The notes beneath the pieces were generated by a model. The model did no database searches and was not told where the DNA came from. It worked only from the letters and a program-made list of their open reading frames with translations. Positions 3,894 to 62,104 of a stretch of 64,000 nucleotides of DNA are shown here, one piece after another. This DNA comes from a virus: positions 1 to 64,000 of IMG/VR virus record IMGVR_UViG_3300025413_001414. The stretch is one strand, 5' to 3'. A program made the translations under genes and the position numbers. How positions within the stretch are numbered: the stretch's first letter is position 1; each line of letters starts with the position of its first letter.

Positions 3894-5501
3894 TTAACTT
3901 TGGATTTTGTTTTTATATAAAAATAGTTTGTTACCACTATTATATATTTTTAAATATTTTAATTTTTTAAGTATTTCATTTTCAGTTAGATTTGGATCGT
4001 GACCCATTTTAGTTAAATTTTGCTTTCTCATTGAAAATCTATTTTTCCTATCAAAATTTTTAACATAGAAGTATCCAGGTTTTGTGAATTTTTCAAATTC
4101 AAATCCAAGTTTAATATATAATTTACCAGATGAATAATCATTATTAGAATATGATATAATATTATCAAATTTATAACTAGATATGAAATATTTAAATAGC
4201 TTAGAAGCTCCACCAACTATATTATATCCAATTTTATTACAAAATCTTATTAACTCATAATCACTGTCATTACCATTTTTATTTCCAAGTGATAATCTCT
4301 TTTTTCCAAATGTCATTATAGAAACTAATTCGTCTTTATAGAAGAGTCCAATATTTATTTTAGACACACACCAACCTTGAATGTGATTATTATTGATAAA
4401 ATTTTTAACTAATTTAAAATCCTTTACTTCTTTAATAACACACTTTCTAGCAAAAATTTTATTTGGTGTTTTCCCCAGCTTATTCAATATCATTGATCTA
4501 ACTATTTCATTTTTATTCTTCCAATCATCTTCCCATATCTGAAAAAGATCTATTCCTATTTCAGAACATCTTTTAAATTTATCATAGTGGTAATTCTTAT
4601 CTTTCCAATTTGTAGAATGCCAGTAAACACCATTTAATTCAATTGCTAATTTTTTATCATCTATAAAATAATCTAATTCTAGATTATTTAGAACTTTTCT
4701 ATTTTTGATTTCATATTGAATATTACTTTCATTCAATAAAAATGAAATTTCCTTTTCTGGATAAGATGAGTATATTGGAAAACAAATTGTACATATTACT
4801 TTTTTATTCAAAATTCGTTCCCTTAGAATGTTATTATTTATGACAAAACTATTTCCACAAAAATTACAATCACATATATATCCTTTATTATCATATCCAG
4901 TTATTTTCACTATATAAGAATATTTTTCCTTTATCTGATTTAACGAATCAGATAATCTATTTTTTAATATTTTTTCCCTATCTACTAACTCAAATGGATT
5001 CTCAACTCCATATTTCATCATACAGGTGTTTCTTATCCTTTCTTTTATTTCTTTATTCTTTATAGCAGAATCAACTCCATAAATTTCAATCATTGATTTT
5101 TTAATCTTATCTTTTATTAAATCATTTTTTACTGGGTGCCCTCCATATTTTTTTTTATTAGTTTCTATTATTTTTTTCTTGATCAAGTCCAATTCAAATA
5201 TGTTTTTAACACCATATTTATCTATATTATGATTATTTCTCTTGATGATGGAACACTTTTCAGAGCAACAATATATATCAATCATATCATTTGTATTTAT
5301 TAGATAATTTTCCCATTTTATAGACTTTGTATTGCCGCATATGTCACATCTAACATTTATATAAAAATTTCCCTTTTTAAATGGATAATCAATAGGTGAT
5401 ACTTTTATAAAATCTCCTAATTTTATATCAACTTTTTTAGTTCTCAAATATGATATATTTCTAGTAGAAGCTTTTATACATATCTCATTATCAATTATCA
5501 T
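3894..5501 (-). CDS. KYGV-repeat homing endonuclease, paralogue 1
   Basis: This 535-residue protein has an N-terminal zinc-ribbon-like part (CDICG, later CCSEKC), then roughly 25-residue repeats with the core KYGV (IYGVDSA, KYGVENPFEL), then a C-terminal nuclease-like domain. The nuclease segment has the line ELDYFIDDKK...IELNGVYWHS followed by YHYDKFKRC...QIWEDDW, like a Vsr/PD-(D/E)XK-type fold. Three more copies of this architecture are in the window (34713, 47181, 60275). The start overlaps the stop of the baseplate gene as TAATG, so the element sits exactly at that gene's end and is probably translationally coupled to it. The free-standing homing role is an inference from family and context. 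Confidence 0.8.
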   Translation of the reverse strand: MIIDNEICIKASTRNISYLRTKKVDIKLGDFIKVSPIDYPFKKGNFYINVRCDICGNTKSIKWENYLINTNDMIDIYCCSEKCSIIKRNNHNIDKYGVKNIFELDLIKKKIIETNKKKYGGHPVKNDLIKDKIKKSMIEIYGVDSAIKNKEIKERIRNTCMMKYGVENPFELVDREKILKNRLSDSLNQIKEKYSYIVKITGYDNKGYICDCNFCGNSFVINNNILRERILNKKVICTICFPIYSSYPEKEISFLLNESNIQYEIKNRKVLNNLELDYFIDDKKLAIELNGVYWHSTNWKDKNYHYDKFKRCSEIGIDLFQIWEDDWKNKNEIVRSMILNKLGKTPNKIFARKCVIKEVKDFKLVKNFINNNHIQGWCVSKINIGLFYKDELVSIMTFGKKRLSLGNKNGNDSDYELIRFCNKIGYNIVGGASKLFKYFISSYKFDNIISYSNNDYSSGKLYIKLGFEFEKFTKPGYFYVKNFDRKNRFSMRKQNLTKMGHDPNLTENEILKKLKYLKIYNSGNKLFLYKNKIQS

Positions 5502-34712: not shown

Positions 34713-36440
34713 ATGCAAAACTATACATTTTTATATAATGATACAAAGTTAGACAAAAACAAACTAAAAGAGGATTGGATTAAGAAAAATGTCCCATCTT
34801 TATACAAAGATGTTATATCATTCTCAAACATGATAAACTTTGAGTATTCCAAATTTTCACAATTATTATATCATTATAAAATAAATAAGACTGAATTGCC
34901 AATATGTGACTATTGCAAAAAAGAAAATAAAAGATTTATTGGATTTGATTATGGATATAAACTAGGATGTAGTAGACATTGTGCAATTTTACTAACAAGA
35001 CCAAAGTCAAATGAAACTAGGAGATTGAACACATTAGAAAAATATGGAGTTGAACACACCACCCAACTAAATTCAGTTAAAGAAAAAATAAAAAAAACCA
35101 ACATTAAAAAGTATGGAGTAGAACATGCTTCACAGAATGAAAATATTAAAAATTCAATTAAAAAAACAAACAATATACGATATGGTACTGATTTGCCTCT
35201 TCAAAATTTACAAATTAAGAATAAAATGATTGATAACTTTATAGAAAAGTATGGTGTCAGTAACCCAATTTTACTAGATTCAGTCAAAAATAAAATTAAA
35301 AAAAATAATTTGAAAAAATATGGATGTGAATGGCACATATCTTCTGATATTATCAAACAAAAAATAAAAAATTCACAATATCTTCATAATTATAAAAATA
35401 TTGTTTCTAATTATGGTAAAATCGATGGATTAAATATAATATCATATGAAAATAATATAGTAAAATTTTATTGTGAAAAGTGTAACAATGAGTTTGAATC
35501 AAATTATGTACATCTTTATAATAGACATATCAGAGATAAATCTAATATTTGTACTATTTGCAATCCACTAAATAACAAAACATCTAATGGACAAAAAGAA
35601 ATTATAAATTTTTTAAAGGAACTAAGAATAAATATTACAGTAAATGATAGAAAAATAATAAATCCATACGAAATAGACATTTATCTAAAAGATTATAATT
35701 TAGGTATTGAGTTTAACGGCATATATTGGCACTCTGAAATAAACAAGGATAATGGCTACCATTATGATAAGTATAATAGATGCACACAAAAAGGTATTGG
35801 ACTAATTCAAATTTGGGAAGATGATTGGACATATAAAAAGGATATAATAAAGTCAGTGATAAAAAGTAGGATAAATAAGAATTCATCAATTGGTGCTAGA
35901 TTATGTATCATAAAAGTAGTTTCAAATGAAGATTCTAAAATTTTTCTAAATGAAAATCATATTCAGGGATGGTGTATTTCAAAATATAGATATGGATTAT
36001 ATTTTGAAAATAATCTAGTTAGTATATTAACAATTTCAAATAGTAGAAAAAATATTACTAAAAATGCAAAAATCGGAGAATATGAAATAGTTAGATTTTG
36101 TAATAAAATTGGAACAAATATCATTGGATCTTTATCAAAACTTTGGAAGTTTTTTGTAAATGAAATAAATCCGGTAAGAGTTATTTCATATTGTGATAAT
36201 GATCTATTTAGTGGTAAATCCTATTATAAAATAGGTATGAAATTAGATAGTATGTCATTTAATTATTGGTGGTGTGATGGTGATAAAAGACAAAATAGAT
36301 GGAATTTCAGAAAAGATAAATTAATAAGTGAAGGATATGATAGAGAAAAAACTGAATCAGAAATAATGATAGAAAGAGGATGGTATAAATGTTATGGATC
36401 TGGTAATAAAAAATTTATTTGGAATAAAGATAATATTTAA
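34713..36440 (+). CDS. KYGV-repeat homing endonuclease, paralogue 2
   Basis: A 575-residue protein with an N-terminal zinc-binding part (CDYCKKEN, later CSRHC), at least five KYGV-type repeats between about 105 and 215 (KYGVEHTTQL, KYGVEHASQN, RYGTDLPLQN, KYGVSNPIL), and the nuclease segment EIDIYLKDYN-LGIEFNGIYWHSE plus QIWEDDW. It sits between the MoxR and 36497 genes in opposite orientation, so it probably inserted in the gap. A TTTAATATATA box is upstream. Confidence 0.8.
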   Translation: MQNYTFLYNDTKLDKNKLKEDWIKKNVPSLYKDVISFSNMINFEYSKFSQLLYHYKINKTELPICDYCKKENKRFIGFDYGYKLGCSRHCAILLTRPKSNETRRLNTLEKYGVEHTTQLNSVKEKIKKTNIKKYGVEHASQNENIKNSIKKTNNIRYGTDLPLQNLQIKNKMIDNFIEKYGVSNPILLDSVKNKIKKNNLKKYGCEWHISSDIIKQKIKNSQYLHNYKNIVSNYGKIDGLNIISYENNIVKFYCEKCNNEFESNYVHLYNRHIRDKSNICTICNPLNNKTSNGQKEIINFLKELRINITVNDRKIINPYEIDIYLKDYNLGIEFNGIYWHSEINKDNGYHYDKYNRCTQKGIGLIQIWEDDWTYKKDIIKSVIKSRINKNSSIGARLCIIKVVSNEDSKIFLNENHIQGWCISKYRYGLYFENNLVSILTISNSRKNITKNAKIGEYEIVRFCNKIGTNIIGSLSKLWKFFVNEINPVRVISYCDNDLFSGKSYYKIGMKLDSMSFNYWWCDGDKRQNRWNFRKDKLISEGYDREKTESEIMIERGWYKCYGSGNKKFIWNKDNI

Positions 36441-45499: not shown

Positions 45500-45529
45500 A
45501 AAAAATAGGAACCGAAGTTCCTATTTTTT
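45500..45529 (-). terminator. Rho-independent terminator of the VWA gene
   Basis: Stem AATAGGAAC/GTTCCTATT with a CGAA/TTCG loop and T7 on the minus strand. Confidence 0.88.
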
Positions 45530-47048
45530 ACTTATCATCATTTTCCAAAACAATCTGTTTTACTTTACCATTTGAACGAGCGATTGGAACTTTAGTACCA
45601 ACAGATATCATCAAGACATTACCTTTAACTTTTGACAAATCAAGTGAGTCAGTATAACCATCTGTTAACAGAATTGTTGCGTATTGGTTGAAGTGTTCTA
45701 CTACATAGTCAAATCCAGTTTGCATTATTGTACCTCCAAGTCCGCGAATTGGAACTTTATCCAATCCTTTCTTATTCTTGATATTTTTAACCCATTTGAT
45801 TTCAGTATCACTTTCAATCAAATTGATTTCAATATCGTTACGATATACATAAGAAAGAACTCTTTCAAAAGTGCCAGATCCACCCATACTTCCTGATGTA
45901 TCAAGAATAACGTTAATCTTTGTTTTAATCTTACGGTTACCTTTCAAACCAGGCACTTGACGACGATTAGGTTTAACAATAGTCTTTTGTTTTTTAGTAC
46001 CAAAGATTTCATTAGCGATTGAACGCTTGATATGTTTCAAATAATCTTTCCTTTTCTTACGAAGCTTATTCAAAGTCTGTTCGATGTTTCCTACTTGAAG
46101 GCCACGAGCCTGTAATCTTTCCATCACATCTTTTACCATAGACTCTCTCATTTCCTCCGGAATTTCATCACCCATGTGGACGTCCATGTATTGACCTTGA
46201 GTATTCTCCATGTTGTCAAAGATTTGATCCAATGACCAAGTATCAATAGTTCCTTTGTCATTTTTCGGATCTTTACCATAAGGGCCATAAGAAGATTTAC
46301 CTTGAGAATCTTTACCATCTTGACCACCACTTCCACCACAATCTGGACAAGGTTCGCCTTTACCATGTTGATGACCTTGACCATTTTGATTCTGACCATT
46401 CTGATCTTGTTGACCATCTTGACCACTCTGACCTTGACCATCTTGTGGCTGAGCTTCACCTTGATCTTGTTGAGGTTGACCTTGTTGATTCTTTTGACCC
46501 TCTTGTTTTTGACCAGTACCGTTACAAGTCTTACACTGGCCGTTTTTCTTTTGTTTCTTTTTGTGCTCGTCTTGTTTATCACGAAGCCACTCATAAACTT
46601 CTTCAAAGATTAATTTACCAGTATATTCTTTAGGAATAAACAAAGCCATGTTCTTACCATTTTCATCCTTAGGAATTTCAATGAAAGAATTTGGAATATC
46701 TTCCCAGATGATATGATTGATAATCATATCTTGAGCGATATTAGAAAGTTGATGGTCGTATTGACCAGTAATAGTACGTTTAGGGTGATTCCACAAAAGG
46801 TGGAAATCTTCGTGTAGAGTAATGAAGTTAACCTCTTTTTGAGACATCTTCTCCAAGAACTCTGAATTGTAATAGAATTGCATACCCTTTGCAGTCATAT
46901 TTACACCACAAGTAGGTACTGCTTTATTATTTTCGTGGAAGTTAATGAAAAGATTGAACGTTCCATAATATGGTAGGTTCACTTTTGTATCAATCAACAT
47001 AATCTGTATAGATTCCATTAATTTCTCGTGAATGTTCTTTAATTGCAT
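45528..47048 (-). CDS. VWA-domain protein with metallopeptidase-like N-terminus
   Basis: A 506-residue protein of the DUF2201 type. An HEDFH (79-83) HExxH motif lies in a peptidase-like domain, then a Q/G/D-rich low-complexity region (about 165-270) that includes two CxxCxGxG units (CKTCNGTG, CPDCGGSG). A C-terminal VWA domain has the MIDAS motif DTSGSMG. VWA proteins of this type pair with MoxR ATPases; the one at 33310 shares its codon use and promoter class. Together they may remodel or insert metal into a target complex. TATCTTTG lies upstream. Confidence 0.85.
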   Translation of the reverse strand: MQLKNIHEKLMESIQIMLIDTKVNLPYYGTFNLFINFHENNKAVPTCGVNMTAKGMQFYYNSEFLEKMSQKEVNFITLHEDFHLLWNHPKRTITGQYDHQLSNIAQDMIINHIIWEDIPNSFIEIPKDENGKNMALFIPKEYTGKLIFEEVYEWLRDKQDEHKKKQKKNGQCKTCNGTGQKQEGQKNQQGQPQQDQGEAQPQDGQGQSGQDGQQDQNGQNQNGQGHQHGKGEPCPDCGGSGGQDGKDSQGKSSYGPYGKDPKNDKGTIDTWSLDQIFDNMENTQGQYMDVHMGDEIPEEMRESMVKDVMERLQARGLQVGNIEQTLNKLRKKRKDYLKHIKRSIANEIFGTKKQKTIVKPNRRQVPGLKGNRKIKTKINVILDTSGSMGGSGTFERVLSYVYRNDIEINLIESDTEIKWVKNIKNKKGLDKVPIRGLGGTIMQTGFDYVVEHFNQYATILLTDGYTDSLDLSKVKGNVLMISVGTKVPIARSNGKVKQIVLENDDK

Positions 47049-47180: not shown

Positions 47181-49016
47181 ATGGTATTAGATAAAAAAAT
47201 AAAAGTTAAAATAAACAAAAAAAATATTTCACATTATATTCAATTTTATCCATCAATAAAATTAAAGGATATTATTGAGGTTGATGTTGAGAATCATTTA
47301 ATGAAAGGAAGTAATCAAAAAATAAACGTCCAATGTGATATCTGTGGAATTGCTAGGTTTATAAATTTCCAATCATATAATATTAATTTAAATTCTTGCC
47401 CGGAATATCCAATTTATACTTGTGATAAATGTTCTCATATTAAAATAAAAGAGTATAATAAGAAAAAATATGGCGTAGAATATTATTCAAAAACTAAGGA
47501 ATATTCAGAAAAGTTTAAGAGTACAATGATTGAAAAATATGGAGTAGAATATGCTTTACAAAGTGATGAATTAAAAAAAAGGCAAATAAATAATAATTTA
47601 GAAAAATATGGTAAAAAAAATGTTTTTCAAGTTGATAAAATTAAAGATAAAATTAAAGAGTATAATAAGGAGAAATATGGTGTAGAACATTATTCAAAAA
47701 CTAAGGAATATTCAGAAAAGTTTAAGAACATAATGATTGAAAAACATGGGGTTGAAAGTCCACTTCAAGGTGGGAGTGTCTCAAGAGAAAAGGCTAAAAA
47801 TACGATGTTAAATAAATATGGAGTTGATGTATATGCAAAAAGTAGTGAATTTTTAGAAAAGGTTAAAATAACCAATATGAAAAAATATGGAGTTGAGTGG
47901 ATAATGAAATCAGATATTTTTAAAGACAAAAGCAAAAAATCTATTAAAAATAGATATGGTGTTGATAATATAGCTAAATACGAGAAGCATAGAAAGGATT
48001 TTAAAATATCTAACGATCCAAATTATATAAAATATGTAAACGAAGGCATATCGCTATTAAAATGTAACAAAGGACATGAATTTGAGATACCATCACATAT
48101 CTATTATAATAGAAGTAAATATAAAATAAATTTATGTACAATGTGTAATCCAGTTGGCGAAAGTTCATCTATAAAGGAAAACGAACTATTTGATTTTATA
48201 TGCAATAACTATAGAGGAGAAATAATAAATTCATATAGGGATAAAAAGGAAATTGATATTTATTTACCAGAATTAAAATTAGGATTTGAATTTAATGGAT
48301 TATTCTGGCATTCAGAATTATATAAGGAAAAAAACTATCACTTAGATAAAACAATTTTATTTAAGGACAAAGGTATAAGCTTATTTCATGTATGGGAGGA
48401 TGATTGGATGTATAAACAGGATATAGTTAAATCGATGATTTTAAACAAATTAGGTGAAACTCCTAGTAGAATATTTGCTAGAAAATGTGAAATTAAAGAA
48501 GTTACTGATAGTAAATTAGTTAGATATTTCCTAAATAAAAATCATATTCAAGGATTTGTTGGATCAAAAATAAAATTAGGGTTATATTATAATGACGAAT
48601 TAGTTAGCTTAATGACATTCGGTAATTTACGAAGATCTTTAGGCCAAAAAAGCAGTGAAGGATCATATGAATTATTAAGATTCTGCAACAAATTAAATAC
48701 CAATGTTATTGGTGGTGCTTCTAAATTACTCAAATATTTTTTAAAATTTAATAATGTCAGGGAAATTATTAGTTATAGTGATTTAAGTAGATCTAATGGT
48801 AATATGTATCAACAATTAGGATTTAAATTACAACATAATTCTAATCCTAATTATTATTACATTATTGGTGGTATTAGAAAACATAGATTTGGATTTAGAA
48901 AAGATGAATTAGTTAAGGATGGATTTGATCCGAATAAAACTGAAATTCAAATAATGAATGAAAGAGGTTATTATAGGATTTTTGATTGTGGAATGCAAAA
49001 ATGGGTATTAAATTAG
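47181..49016 (+). CDS. KYGV-repeat homing endonuclease, paralogue 3
   Basis: A 611-residue protein with N-terminal zinc ligands (CDICGIARF, CDKCSH), about eight KYGV units between 95 and 275 (KKYGVEYYSKT, EKYGVEYALQS, EKYGKKNVFQV), then the nuclease signature EIDIYLPELK-LGFEFNGLFWHSE and HVWEDDW. Two repeat blocks (EYSEKFK, KYGVE-YYSKTK) are nearly identical within the protein, showing recent internal duplication. It fills the gap between divergently placed minus-strand operons. Confidence 0.8.
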   Translation: MVLDKKIKVKINKKNISHYIQFYPSIKLKDIIEVDVENHLMKGSNQKINVQCDICGIARFINFQSYNINLNSCPEYPIYTCDKCSHIKIKEYNKKKYGVEYYSKTKEYSEKFKSTMIEKYGVEYALQSDELKKRQINNNLEKYGKKNVFQVDKIKDKIKEYNKEKYGVEHYSKTKEYSEKFKNIMIEKHGVESPLQGGSVSREKAKNTMLNKYGVDVYAKSSEFLEKVKITNMKKYGVEWIMKSDIFKDKSKKSIKNRYGVDNIAKYEKHRKDFKISNDPNYIKYVNEGISLLKCNKGHEFEIPSHIYYNRSKYKINLCTMCNPVGESSSIKENELFDFICNNYRGEIINSYRDKKEIDIYLPELKLGFEFNGLFWHSELYKEKNYHLDKTILFKDKGISLFHVWEDDWMYKQDIVKSMILNKLGETPSRIFARKCEIKEVTDSKLVRYFLNKNHIQGFVGSKIKLGLYYNDELVSLMTFGNLRRSLGQKSSEGSYELLRFCNKLNTNVIGGASKLLKYFLKFNNVREIISYSDLSRSNGNMYQQLGFKLQHNSNPNYYYIIGGIRKHRFGFRKDELVKDGFDPNKTEIQIMNERGYYRIFDCGMQKWVLN

Positions 49017-55256: not shown

Positions 55257-56117
55257 ATGAATAGAAAATGGCTTATATTTTTGGTATCTCTTGCAGCAAT
55301 TACAATTGCTGGAACTGCTGCCTATTTTTCAGTTACAGGTCTTGGTGTATTATTTGCTGGTGCTTCTGTGTCAGTTATGATTATGGCTGGTTCATTAGAG
55401 TTTGCTAAACTTGTTACTGCTACATACTTAAAACAATCTTGGAAAACAATAAAAGGTATTAATAAATGGTATTTAACAATTGCTGTTGCTATTTTAATGT
55501 TAATTACATCTGCGGGTATCTTTGGTTATTTATCAAATGCCTTCCAACAACAAAATTTGAAATTAGACCAAGTTCAGCGAGAAATCTCTGTCTGGGACAC
55601 AAAGATTAAAACTAATAATGATCAAATTACATTCTTAAATACACAACTTACTAATTTACAACAAAATCAGGGTAAGTTATTGGAAAATGGTAAAGTTAAT
55701 AATCGTTTATTATCATCAGTTGATAATAGGGATAAACAAACAGCTAAGATATCCGATAAAATATCATCTTTACAAGATTCAATTGTATCCTACAATAATC
55801 AAATCAATGAAATCAAAAACAAAAACATCGACATTGAAAAAGAAGTTGGTGGATTTAGATTCGTAGCTGAGGCTTTTAATGTTCCATTAAAAACAGTTGT
55901 TAAATTTTTCATAATTTTAATTGTAGTAGTTTTTGACCCATTAGCTATCGCACTTGTAATTGCTTTTAACGAGTTAACTTTACAAGGTAAAAAAGATGAA
56001 GAAGAAACTAAAACTGAACTACCACAAGTTGAGACTCCTAAAGTAGAACAGGAAATATCAACACCAACCGTTGAAACTACTGAATCTGATGATTCTGATT
56101 TAAAAAAAAAGTCTTAG
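55257..56117 (+). CDS. Membrane/coiled-coil protein, zero-frame product (286 aa)
   Basis: Three hydrophobic segments lie between residues 5 and 97 (LIFLVSLAAITIAGTAAYF, GVLFAGASVSVMIMAGSL, LTIAVAILMLITSAGIFGYL). A periplasm-sized or cytoplasmic coil (100-200) and a further membrane segment (about 215-238, VVKFFIILIVVVFDPLAIAL) follow. The arrangement resembles DUF4407-type phage membrane proteins. The frame ends after an acidic tail at 56117, 15 bases beyond a poly-A slip site that would join it to the coil at 56102-56995. Confidence 0.75.
   Translation: MNRKWLIFLVSLAAITIAGTAAYFSVTGLGVLFAGASVSVMIMAGSLEFAKLVTATYLKQSWKTIKGINKWYLTIAVAILMLITSAGIFGYLSNAFQQQNLKLDQVQREISVWDTKIKTNNDQITFLNTQLTNLQQNQGKLLENGKVNNRLLSSVDNRDKQTAKISDKISSLQDSIVSYNNQINEIKNKNIDIEKEVGGFRFVAEAFNVPLKTVVKFFIILIVVVFDPLAIALVIAFNELTLQGKKDEEETKTELPQVETPKVEQEISTPTVETTESDDSDLKKKS
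56100..56117 (+). promoter_or_regulatory. dnaX-type -1 frameshift site (A AAA AAG)
   Basis: The zero-frame codons are TTA AAA AAA AAG TCT TAG. Slipping back one base on A-AAA-AAG gives AAA AAA GTC TTA GAG and opens a 297-codon frame (56102-56995). A AAA AAG is the classic slippery heptamer of E. coli dnaX. An assembly indel in the A9 run is the alternative. Confidence 0.6.
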
Positions 56118-56995
56118 AGGATAAGGAAGAGTACCTTAAAAACTTAGAAAACCAATTAGAATCAAAATTAAAAGAAGTTGAAACTGTTAAAAATGAATAT
56201 GCTTCTAAGTTAAAAGAACTAGAAGATAATAAGTTAAATTTCAACTCTACTTCACAAAAACATCTTCAAGATTTAGAAAGTCAAAAAAATGAATACTCTT
56301 CTAAATTGAAAGAATTAGAGTCATTAAAATCAATTAATGAATCACAACTACAAGATTTAGAAAATCAAAAGTCTGAATTTGATTCTAAATTAAATGATTT
56401 AGCAAAACAAAAATCTGAAATAACTTCTAAATTAAATGAATTAGAAAGTCAGAAATCAAGTAGTGATGCTTTACAATTGGAATTAAACAATGCTAAATCT
56501 GAATATACTTCTAAATTAAATGAATTAGAATCATTAAAATCTGAATATACTTCTAAATTAAATGAATTGGAATTAGATAAAACTAATTACAATAACAAAT
56601 TTATTGAATTACAAAATCTTAAAAATGAATATGATTCTAAATTGAAATCTTTAGAAAATAGACAAAATGGCTTAGACAATGAAGTAGAAGAAAAAAGAAG
56701 AGATTTAGAATTAAAATATAAATCTAAATTAAAAGAGATTGAAAAGACTTATCAAGATAAGATAAAGAATATGGAAGAAGATTTTGAATCTAAAATTGAA
56801 CAATTACAAGAATCTTATAAGGATAAAATGTCTGACTTAATCGATACAAATAATTCTAAAGTTGATAAAGAAAATTTAAATAATATTAAAGAAATGTTAG
56901 TTAGCACACATGGATCACTACCATATTATCAAAATAGAATGGATGCTCTTAAAAGAAGAATTGAAGAAGTAATTGAGCAGATAGAAAGTCTGTAA
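56102..56995 (+). CDS. Coiled-coil extension reached by -1 frameshift
   Basis: The frame continues as KKVLEDKEEYLKNLENQLES and runs for about 297 residues of nearly pure heptad coil. It has repeated units such as SEYTSKLNELES and KNEYSSKLKELES, and ends in IEEVIEQIESL. There is no good start codon at its beginning (the first are internal TTG or ATG codons), so it is most simply the C-terminal part of a 55257-56995 fusion protein. The full protein would be a membrane-anchored rod of about 580 residues. Confidence 0.65.
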   Translation, partial: KKKVLEDKEEYLKNLENQLESKLKEVETVKNEYASKLKELEDNKLNFNSTSQKHLQDLESQKNEYSSKLKELESLKSINESQLQDLENQKSEFDSKLNDLAKQKSEITSKLNELESQKSSSDALQLELNNAKSEYTSKLNELESLKSEYTSKLNELELDKTNYNNKFIELQNLKNEYDSKLKSLENRQNGLDNEVEEKRRDLELKYKSKLKEIEKTYQDKIKNMEEDFESKIEQLQESYKDKMSDLIDTNNSKVDKENLNNIKEMLVSTHGSLPYYQNRMDALKRRIEEVIEQIESL

Positions 56996-58197: not shown

Positions 58198-58752
58198 TTA
58201 AAATCTTCGTTTATTTGATAAATAAATTAGTCCACCCATTAGAGCACCACCCACATGTCCAAAATGAGACACATTATCATGTGAATTGAATCCACTGATT
58301 ACCTCAATTAAAAATAGACCACCAATAATATACTTAGCTTTAATAGGAGCAGGTAGGAACATAAAATACATTGACTGATTTGGATACATCAAAGTAAATA
58401 TAACCATAATACCCCAGATGGAACCAGAAGCCCCAACTAAAGGATTACTACTCCCTACCATATAAAGATGAAGGGCTGCTCCAGCAATGCCACAAAGTAA
58501 ATAGTAAATCCACATTTTTCGACCACCATAAATTTCCTCAACAGAAGGTCCAAAAGATAGTAATACTAACATATTGAAAATAATATGTAAAAAACCACCA
58601 TGTATGAATTGGTAAGTGATAAACTGAAATCCTAAATCGGGATTATTCAAAGAAAATAATCCATACATTAGATTTGGTAGCAATAGTGTCAATAAAAAGG
58701 CTACTACATTAATGTAGAAAATACTTTTAACGGTAGGTGTAGATTGGAACAT
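58198..58752 (-). CDS. Rhomboid-family intramembrane serine protease
   Basis: A 184-residue protein with about six membrane helices. The catalytic serine is Ser109 in VGASGSIWG, and the histidine is His166 in SHFGHVGGALMG. The oxyanion helper HIIFN (56-60) is also present. Rhomboids cut transmembrane substrates inside the bilayer. A phage copy could shed a host surface protein or process a phage membrane protein. A TATCTTTG box is upstream at 58832. Confidence 0.93.
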   Translation of the reverse strand: MFQSTPTVKSIFYINVVAFLLTLLLPNLMYGLFSLNNPDLGFQFITYQFIHGGFLHIIFNMLVLLSFGPSVEEIYGGRKMWIYYLLCGIAGAALHLYMVGSSNPLVGASGSIWGIMVIFTLMYPNQSMYFMFLPAPIKAKYIIGGLFLIEVISGFNSHDNVSHFGHVGGALMGGLIYLSNKRRF

Positions 58753-58844: not shown

Positions 58845-60188
58845 TTATTTTAACTTCTTTTTTAATATTGATAAATCTTCTAAATACATATTTTTAGAAT
58901 CAATTTTACTAAGAGCATCCATTTCTTCTTTCTTAATCTTAAAATCTTCTTTTAATTTTTCAAACATTTCTTTTGTTAAAGACCAGATTGGCATTCTCAA
59001 TAAGTAGTCGAAACTATCATCAATTTTATCCAAGCCTAAAGCATCAATATCTTTTATAAGTTTATCCTTTGGAACATTTTTTACCTCTAACTTACCATCT
59101 AAAATAGCTTTAATAAATCTTGCTCTATTAGATAATATTTTTAATTCATGGTTTAACTTATCTAAAAGATATTGTTTTCTTTTATCATAATAAGTTAACC
59201 TGAAATTAACAAAGTAGATAAATATATCTTCAATAGAATCAAATATTTTTAACTTACTATTTTCATCCAAAGTAGAGTAGATTTCAGTTTCATATTCTTC
59301 TAATTTAAGAAGTTTTATTAGCTTTTCCTCATCATACTTAGCTAACTGGTCTCGTGTAAATTTAATGGTATAATCTATATTATCCTTACAATTATCATCA
59401 TAAGAGATAATAACCTTCTTTTCAATTAAGTCATCTAAGATTGATTCGTATTTTTCGAAAGTCATTGATGGTGGTAATTCTGTTATCTTAACTGTTGATG
59501 TATTAACAACTTGAGGCTTTCCTCTGATTATCCATCTTTTTTTATTTTCTTCATCTTGAATATAATCACCATTGAAGAAAGGATTATAGGGTTTAACTTG
59601 AGATATCTTTTTACCTTTTAATAAATTTTCACAAGCTGTAATTGCATCAATTGGATTTCTGTTTAATATATTAGAAGAAAATCCAACTGCGATACCAGAT
59701 GAACCGTTAATTAATACTGTTGGTATAATAGGTAGGAAAAATCTTGGTTCAATTTCTTCTCCTTCTTCTTCTTTATAATCTAGTAATTCAAAGTCTTTAT
59801 AAAGTAGTCTAAAGTTATTATTTAATTTGGTTCCAATATATCTTGGAGCACCTGGTTCAGGTGATCTCAAGGACCCGAATTGACCATCTTCTTCAAGAAG
59901 TGGCATATTGTTTTTGAATTTTTGAGCCATGTTAATAATAGCAGATTCAAGACTTGTGTTACCATGATGATAATAACAATCAGAAGCTACTTTTCCAGCT
60001 AATTGAAATATTTTTAATGGTTTTTCGTTACCCGTTTTCCAAACAGAGTTACTAACGTGAATAATCTTTCTTTGTGAAGGTTTAAGACCATCTATAACAG
60101 ATGGTATGGCTCTATTTTCAATAACATATAATGAAAATTCTTTGTATTCACTTGATAAAAATTCTGTAATTGTTTTTTCTGAATTCAT
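58845..60188 (-). CDS. Type II topoisomerase medium subunit (T4 gp52-like)
   Basis: From the preferred start MNSEKT (60188) it has 447 residues. The breakage-reunion motif SLRSPEPGAPRYIGTKL gives active-site Tyr117, and INGSSGIAVGFSSNI follows as in gp52/GyrA proteins. It pairs with the large subunit at 62512 to relax or decatenate phage DNA during replication. The short length matches T4 gp52 rather than full GyrA. The extra 16 hydrophobic residues upstream (to 60236) are unlikely. Confidence 0.92.
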   Translation of the reverse strand: MNSEKTITEFLSSEYKEFSLYVIENRAIPSVIDGLKPSQRKIIHVSNSVWKTGNEKPLKIFQLAGKVASDCYYHHGNTSLESAIINMAQKFKNNMPLLEEDGQFGSLRSPEPGAPRYIGTKLNNNFRLLYKDFELLDYKEEEGEEIEPRFFLPIIPTVLINGSSGIAVGFSSNILNRNPIDAITACENLLKGKKISQVKPYNPFFNGDYIQDEENKKRWIIRGKPQVVNTSTVKITELPPSMTFEKYESILDDLIEKKVIISYDDNCKDNIDYTIKFTRDQLAKYDEEKLIKLLKLEEYETEIYSTLDENSKLKIFDSIEDIFIYFVNFRLTYYDKRKQYLLDKLNHELKILSNRARFIKAILDGKLEVKNVPKDKLIKDIDALGLDKIDDSFDYLLRMPIWSLTKEMFEKLKEDFKIKKEEMDALSKIDSKNMYLEDLSILKKKLK

Positions 60189-60274
60189 AATGTATATATA
60201 ATAATATTTATTTTTTGTTTTAAAACAGGTATACAATCAGTGATCGAATGGCTTAAAATTTAATATATATATTT

Positions 60275-62104
60275 ATGATAGTAAATGAAAAAATAAGTAT
60301 AAATGTTAATCCAAATTCTAGAATTTATTACAATTCGATTGGATATAGATGTTCTAATTTTGAGAAAATAGAAATTAGAACAATTGATCTACCAAATGGG
60401 TCTAATATTAAAATATTGGTCAGGTGTGATGTTTGTTTTATTGATCAAACAACTAAGTACAATAAATACTTGAAAAACACAAGGAATAATACTATTCTAT
60501 ACACCTGCAAAAAATGTTCTTTTATAAAAAATAAAAAAACAAAATTAGAAAAATACGGAAATGAAAATTATCAGAATACAGAAAAAATAAAGAAGACAAA
60601 ATTAGAAAAATACGGAGACGAAAACTATACAAATAGAATAAAAGCGAAAAATACATGTATAGAAAAATATGGAGTTGATAATGTATCAAAGTTTGATGAT
60701 ATAAAGTTAACTAAAAAGAAAACAAATATTGATAATTGGGGAGTTGATAATGTTTTTAAATCTGAAGAAATTAAGAGTAAAATATCAGAATCGGTTAGAA
60801 TTAAATATGGATCAGATAATTATGTTACATCAGATGATTGTAAAAATAAGTATAAAATATTCTGTGAGGAATTAGGTGTTAGTCATTATTCACAGTCTAA
60901 AGAATTTAAAGATAAATTTGAGGAAACATGTTTAGTAAGCTGGGGATATAAGACGAATTTATTAAATAATGATATAAAAAATAAGATAAAGGAGACCAAT
61001 CTTATAAAGTATGGATTTGAGTATCATATGAAAAATGCAAAATATTCAGAATTAACATCAAAAAGAATAACAGAGGGCAGAAATGATTATTATAAAGTAT
61101 TAGGATATGAATTGATAAATTATGATTTTAATAAAAAGGAATATCTACTTAAAAGTATTTCATGTGGTCATGAATTTAAAATAAATCATGATTTATTTAG
61201 AAGTAGGATAAAATATAACAACAGTTCTTGTTTGATATGCTATCCAAAAGATGGGTTAACATCAATAAAAGAATTAGAGCTTGGTAACTTTATTAAAGAA
61301 ATATCAAATAATATTATATTAAACTCAAGAGACTTGATTGATGGTAAGGAAATAGATATTTATTTACCAGATCATAAGATAGGAATAGAATTTAATGGAT
61401 TATACTGGCATTCGGATGAATTTAAAGATAAATATTATCATTATAATAAAACAAAATCCTGTTTAGAAAATGGAATATCCTTAATTCATATATGGGAGGA
61501 TGACTGGTTAAATAAAAAAGATATAGTTAAATCAATAATTAAAAACAGATTAGGAATAATTGATAATAGAATATATGCCAGAAAATGTAAAATTGAAATT
61601 GTTACAAACTCAATTAGTAATAAGTTTTTAGACGAAAATCACATTCAAGGTGGGACAAATGCTTCTGTTTGTATTTCATTAAAATATGAAAATGAAATAG
61701 TATCTATAATGACATTTGGTAAAAGAAGAATAAACTCTAAATTGAACCTGGAACTTGTTAGATTTTGTAATAAGAAAAATACATCAGTCATCGGATCGGC
61801 TTCTAAATTATTCAAACACTTTATTGAAAATAACGAATACGATAAAATAACATCATATTCAGATTTGTCCATTTTTAATGGAGATTTATATGAAAGTCTT
61901 GGATTCAAAAATGACGGCGAAACATCTTTAAATTACTATTGGAGCGATTTAAAAAGAAGATATCATAGATTTAATTTTAACAAAAAGAGACTAATAAAAA
62001 TAGGATATGATCCAAATAAGACCGAAGATGAAATTATGAAGAGCATTGGATATATTAAAATATGGTCTTGTGGTCAGGTAAGGTGGATTTTTAATAAGAT
62101 ATAA
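60275..62104 (+). CDS. KYGV-repeat homing endonuclease, paralogue 4
   Basis: A 609-residue protein with zinc ligands near the N-terminus (RCDVCF, CKKCSF), seven repeat units from about 90 to 260 (LEKYGNENYQN, IEKYGVDNVSK, NWGVDNVFKS), and the nuclease segment EIDIYLPDHK-IGIEFNGLYWHSD followed by HIWEDDW. It lies between the two topoisomerase subunit genes, a classic site for mobile elements in T4-like phages. A TTTAATATATATA box is just upstream. Confidence 0.8.
   Translation: MIVNEKISINVNPNSRIYYNSIGYRCSNFEKIEIRTIDLPNGSNIKILVRCDVCFIDQTTKYNKYLKNTRNNTILYTCKKCSFIKNKKTKLEKYGNENYQNTEKIKKTKLEKYGDENYTNRIKAKNTCIEKYGVDNVSKFDDIKLTKKKTNIDNWGVDNVFKSEEIKSKISESVRIKYGSDNYVTSDDCKNKYKIFCEELGVSHYSQSKEFKDKFEETCLVSWGYKTNLLNNDIKNKIKETNLIKYGFEYHMKNAKYSELTSKRITEGRNDYYKVLGYELINYDFNKKEYLLKSISCGHEFKINHDLFRSRIKYNNSSCLICYPKDGLTSIKELELGNFIKEISNNIILNSRDLIDGKEIDIYLPDHKIGIEFNGLYWHSDEFKDKYYHYNKTKSCLENGISLIHIWEDDWLNKKDIVKSIIKNRLGIIDNRIYARKCKIEIVTNSISNKFLDENHIQGGTNASVCISLKYENEIVSIMTFGKRRINSKLNLELVRFCNKKNTSVIGSASKLFKHFIENNEYDKITSYSDLSIFNGDLYESLGFKNDGETSLNYYWSDLKRRYHRFNFNKKRLIKIGYDPNKTEDEIMKSIGYIKIWSCGQVRWIFNKI

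Follow-up and report, generated by a model that had tools for sequence, protein, structure and literature searches.

The window, by which we mean the whole stretch of 64,000 nucleotides that was analysed, comes from a virus record of 78,698 bases (IMG/VR IMGVR_UViG_3300025413_001414) and carries a gene for a membrane protein whose 3' end reads GAT TTA AAA AAA AAG TCT TAG, followed by a long open -1 frame (Table 1). The zero-frame protein, which shares 70% and 67% identity with its relatives L003 and L004, contains about four hydrophobic segments, near residues 4-27, 24-49, 70-95 and 205-242, of which the last two are separated by a long helical coil, and it has an acidic tail (structure model mean pLDDT 65.7). 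In the loop formed by residues 52-74, K+R amounts to 4 and D+E to 0, and the positive-inside rule, which is well established for membrane topology, would place the coil in the periplasm and the tail in the cytoplasm.

Table 1. Features of the membrane-protein gene and its -1 extension (window positions)
Feature	Position	Strand	Remarks
Zero-frame membrane-protein gene	55257-56117	+	ATG at 55257, stop TAG at 56115-56117; short product of 286 aa
A9 run, proposed slippage site	56102-56110	+	25 of the 135 distinct relatives listed have A9-A11 close to the stop
Heptamer A_AAA_AAG, possible ribosomal -1 site	56105-56111	+	In frame; heptamer in 18 of 25 sites, judged by the base after the run
Zero-frame stop TAG	56115-56117	+	Lies two codons on from the start of AAG
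-1 frame coiled-coil extension	56105-56995	+	14-residue repeat, readable only after a shift; fusion product of 579 aa

Since the run of nine A is read as TTA AAA AAA AAG TCT TAG, the heptamer A_AAA_AAG lies in frame. The -1 frame opens 16 nt 5' of the zero-frame stop and closes at a stop codon at 56993-56995, thereby giving 296 residues counted from the heptamer, with a hydrophobic periodicity of 7/11/14 besides the 14-residue repeat. The original prediction of a -1 frame open for about 297 codons after A-AAA-AAG, with coil periodicity and no plausible start of its own, is thus borne out, the earliest candidate start being a TTG at 56306, 191 nt beyond the zero-frame stop. Over the 292 codons beyond that stop, the -1 frame contains no stop codon whereas the two remaining forward frames contain 35 and 59, which makes chance a poor explanation of the opening. 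In addition, the GC content by codon position is coding-like in the extension (0.36/0.19/0.13, compared to 0.41/0.31/0.17 in the zero frame). No relative of the coil was found among the viral contigs searched, nor among the tails of related genes, and a search of the window gene as DNA against phages returned no match; for want of relatives, the coil is therefore taken as coding from the shared site, the open frame, the codon composition and the repeat. It had also been proposed that a run of 8 or 10 A would give one uninterrupted frame. This holds for 10 A, with which a single continuous frame of 579 residues is predicted, but not for 8 A, with which only 288 residues would be made; by arithmetic, 7 A would likewise join the two frames.

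Relatives of the gene were collected from three scans of viral contigs (of which the best 80 of 389, the best 80 of 377 and the best 80 of 432 were kept), one further search and eight phage records, which together gave at least 239 gene-bearing records, counting the window, some contigs having been fetched repeatedly. At least 135 distinct complete genes, again with the window, make up the relative set, while one scan of cellular genomes yielded no relative. Sites were retained when a run of 8 or more A lay within the last 90 nt before the zero-frame stop and was accompanied by a -1 extension. An A9-A11 run near the zero-frame stop together with an open -1 frame is present in 25 of the 135 distinct complete genes listed, window included, and in all 25 the run is so phased as to lead into the open -1 frame, which extends for 57 to 292 codons past the stop, except in L035, where the contig end cuts it at 20. 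One more gene that passes the filter, L087, was left out because it is distant, with a run 41 nt before the stop and an extension of 32 codons; apart from it, none of the eight members from annotated records passed. Among the 135 genes listed, there is no case of a run of 8 or more A near the stop without a -1 extension, and 109 have no near-stop run. As for other genes, A8 or longer near the stop occurs in 28 of 1276 ORFs, five of which have a -1 extension of 40 codons or more; by eye, four of these extensions begin with an ATG directly past the stop, as would a normal downstream gene, while the remaining one is on the minus strand of the window.

Twelve of the 25 sites belong to clade A and twelve to clade B, the remaining one being that of the window, which a quick tree places on a long branch amid rows of clade A. 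At least five changes between one-frame and two-frame states are needed on this tree, which, with the 109 relatives devoid of a near-stop run, indicates that the arrangement is not required everywhere. As judged from these sequences, the run of nine A has the appearance of a genuine switch point, maintained in evolution, near the end of a phage membrane-protein gene.

That the -1 frames are coding is seen in clade B, in which the extensions of 11 of the 12 members match 95 of the 102 in-frame tails found in one-frame relatives (lowest E 2.6e-44); the extension of the twelfth, the contig-end-cut L035, matches four one-frame tails. Translations of control frames gave no such match (0 of 125). 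The shared part is a small domain with the consensus DxDGDGxIDGYDTDGDG...PYYAxPxFDWxDKxKWINDQNAVNYW, for which the structure model is of good confidence (pLDDT 84.5). In clade A, the 12 extensions are related to one another. Besides, in 14 hand-picked pairs, substitutions fall on -1 codon positions 1, 2 and 3 in the numbers 110, 84 and 288. The long coil itself is peculiar to the window, the other members carrying other tails. The claim of two products, one short and one long, is strongly supported by another 24 distinct relatives that are arranged in this way, and a single gene very probably gives rise to both by a change of frame at the run, irrespective of which machine slips.

Long A runs are otherwise rare in the genes of these phages. 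In 980 other genes, 15 runs of A9 or longer were observed against about 99 expected from synonymous shuffling, with 12, 3, 0 and 0 runs of A9, A10, A11 and A12+ compared to 58.4, 22.1, 13.8 and 4.6 expected. The observed/expected ratio falls from 0.96 for A6 and 0.91 for A7 to 0.49 for A8, 0.21 for A9 and 0.14 for A10, and no A11 was found for 13.8 expected. In the same line, KKK is encoded by AAA throughout in only 9 of 115 cases, although AAA makes up 79.5% of the Lys codons. It should be kept in mind that replication slippage could also explain such avoidance (Baranov et al., PMC1088944, available excerpt).

The tails of the family members were examined for runs in 127 genes, that is the 135 less the eight annotated-record loci. 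A run of A9 or longer is found in the tail in 38 of them, the 25 included, to be compared with the 15 such runs in the 980 other genes. The 13 others are one-frame relatives with an in-frame A9-A11 run, in which one additional A brings a stop after at most about 11 residues. Slippage would here give the short form, with a polarity opposite to that of the 25 sites. Since 11 of these 13 genes form one clade and the runs may just reflect Lys codons that arose by chance in a single lineage, this reverse polarity is no more than suggestive as a slippage signal. Finally, seven clade B genes (L049, L069, L070, L074, L174, L175 and L224) have two serial A9-A11 runs, one shortening and one lengthening.

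The following model is proposed. Most transcripts would carry nine A and be read to the zero-frame stop, giving the 286-residue membrane protein. On some transcripts, RNA polymerase would slip on the A9 run and add one A (or lose two), so that translation would continue in the -1 frame and produce the 579-residue protein, in which the same membrane part is followed by a coiled-coil rod that should lie in the cytoplasm. Slippage of the polymerase could be supplemented or replaced by -1 slippage of the ribosome on A_AAA_AAG. We infer the use of both products, and likewise their shares. That it is the polymerase which slips seems rather probable, and this preference relies on the A9-A11 length of the runs, the base other than G that follows the run in 7 of 25 sites, the avoidance of A9 or longer elsewhere and, more tentatively, the mixed polarity. 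In PMC1088944, the A9 threshold and conserved runs are taken as a sign of slippage, and mixed direction among orthologues is regarded as transcriptional in section 10 of PMC3711429.

It is possible, if less likely, that the ribosome alone is responsible, by -1 frameshifting on A_AAA_AAG or A_AAA_AAA in the style of E. coli dnaX, the long run being then incidental and the two products the same. Consistent with this, the heptamer is in frame in the window and retained in 13 of 13 A9 sites, window included, and the direction is -1 in 25 of 25 near-stop sites, such uniform direction being a ribosomal sign according to the available part of PMC3711429. However, with run lengths of 9, 10 and 11, the base after the run is G at 18 sites, T at 5 and C at 2, and AAG is therefore missing from 7 of the 25. 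The run is, moreover, always 9-11 long where the ribosomal heptamer requires 7 bases, while A6-A7 is tolerated in coding sequence and A9 or longer strongly avoided. Nor was a conserved 3' structure found: the search for a downstream stem-loop gave a z of -0.23 in the window and a mean z of -0.13, with 2 of 25 sites below -2 (60-nt span, pseudoknots left out). No Shine-Dalgarno-like stimulator lies upstream of the window site, a tetramer of this kind being present within 15 nt upstream at 8 of 25 sites, and Shine-Dalgarno use is in any case scant outside the clade B loci. Indeed, such tetramers occur at 2 starts versus 3 control positions out of 46 in the window, at 6 versus 13 out of 102 in clade A, and at 32 of 417 starts versus 53 at the control position in the first 60 one-frame loci; the exception is clade B, with 9 of 64 starts against 3 of 64. 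Rfam gave no match, nor did the region show any site resembling a terminator.

A phase-variable (contingency) locus would toggle whole genomes between short and long through replication slippage. DNA tracts of A9-A11 do change readily, and this alternative is named in the portions of PMC3711429 and PMC1088944 available; yet the 42 records with a near-stop run show only A9 at the third position and A10-A11 at the second, none being fused, and no one-frame relative appears by eye to be the +1 A version of the same site, which renders phase variation improbable. Two separate genes, the second being begun internally or by reinitiation, might be suspected where a TTG overlaps the stop (L006, L159 and L162) or a start codon lies 5-26 nt beyond it (L008, L009, L028 and L070), but the first -1 start of the window is the TTG 191 nt beyond the stop, none is listed for L035 and L222, and in clade B the extensions show homology to portions of a single protein, so that this explanation is very unlikely. 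Finally, a homopolymer sequencing or assembly error in a true one-frame gene, which the error-prone nature of homopolymers and the single frame of most relatives might suggest, is the least credible of all in the face of same-phase runs in 24 other distinct genes, equal run lengths across contigs for one site (L049 = L069; L170 = L172 = L173; other repeats being one contig refetched) and a substitution pattern that follows the -1 codons.

Returning to slippage at the run, a broader and tentative reading is that the A run acts as a socket: a slippage site would be kept at the junction between membrane part and tail, unrelated C-terminal modules would be attached behind it, and the ratio of bare to tailed protein would be set by the run, some members having serial runs and one clade the reverse polarity. 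The modules named behind the run comprise a DGDG/WIN domain, an often RRR-ended tail and the 290-residue coil of the window.

In E. coli, the dnaX frameshift yields the shorter form. The phage sites share with this gene the A_AAA_AAG heptamer and the -1 outcome but not its stimulators, which were not found (PMC5009743, partial text). The description of the site as dnaX-like thus stands as regards the heptamer, while the Thermus dnaX or TssM kind fits better. As in Thermus thermophilus dnaX, an A9 run is associated with two products, although there the templated frame gives the long form and the protein is unrelated (PMC1088944, excerpt). A further parallel may be drawn with Citrobacter rodentium tssM1, where, in an inner-membrane protein gene, a run (A11 there) precedes an early stop, slippage adds a C-terminal part and both resulting lengths are needed; polarity is mixed among tssM genes too, Yersinia tssM3 being the reverse of Citrobacter tssM1. 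Unlike the phage gene, tssM1 encodes an unrelated protein and is a bacterial secretion gene whose transcriptional slippage has been shown experimentally (PMC4256274, from the sections available). Likeness to the tail assembly chaperone G/GT extends to a phage gene with a -1 extension (PMC5009743, partial text), but the tail-chaperone reading is rejected on account of the hydrophobic segments and a neighbourhood without recognised tail genes, and no sequence relation was found. No description of the gene was encountered in the literature searched, including the available parts of PMC4256274, PMC2853527, PMC5009743, PMC1088944, PMC3711429 and PMC10885494.

As regards function, Pfam and PHROGs gave just weak coil-type matches for the window proteins, and five tails searched against Pfam had no match above cut-off, with sub-threshold EF-hand matches for DxDGDG in three. 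With Foldseek against the PDB, neither the membrane part (low-confidence model) nor the clade B tail (one match at E 8.2) reached E 0.001, and no PDB sequence matched the latter. In the tails of clade B and of some one-frame relatives, DxDGDG repeats resembling calcium sites precede a conserved FxW...WIN...AV..YW motif, for which neither Pfam nor the PDB gave a match. The family is found in large phages of several kinds, and its neighbours, which vary by clade, look like genes for sigma factor, amidase, ClpP, Hsp20 and deformylase (by eye, except for the amidase). The amidase gene downstream in clade A led a lysis role to be considered; this was rejected, such a neighbour being not found in clade B loci and none being seen beside the window gene.

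The nearest named gene in the window encodes a gp52-like topoisomerase (58845-60236) with 69% and 67% identity to its counterparts in two uncultured phages, of 642 and 635 kb, which suggests that the record, at 78.7 kb, may be a piece of a huge phage; the membrane-protein gene is absent within about 9 kb of gp52 in three huge-phage regions. The product of 58198-58752, which resembles a rhomboid protease in its GASGSIWG motif, has relatives near gp52 in two huge phages. The 64 kb also contain four large HNH/homing-endonuclease-like genes (3894-5501, 34713-36440, 45528-47048 and 47181-49016), which 60275-62104 resembles by eye. A second coding A9 run is located within the first of these (phrog_3339), at 5148-5156 on the minus strand (T9 on the plus strand), and the three remaining A9+ runs in the window fall between listed ORFs. 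As a working guess, the family member would serve as an anchor in the membrane, its tailed form binding a partner in the cytoplasm and its bare form setting spacing or number. By analogy, the product ratio would be fixed by slippage, as for TssM1 (PMC4256274, available sections).

Taken together, these observations add a new gene family to a kind of recoding that is already known. Tail chaperones are the best-known case of frameshifting in tailed phages, while slippage on A runs is known mainly in genes of bacteria and in IS elements. The phage membrane proteins described here, a widespread family, appear to use A-run recoding. Since ordinary gene calling would shorten these proteins, their tails are easily missed. 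The natural variation of the family in run length, next base, polarity and tail makes both the choice between polymerase and ribosome and the use of the product ratio directly testable.
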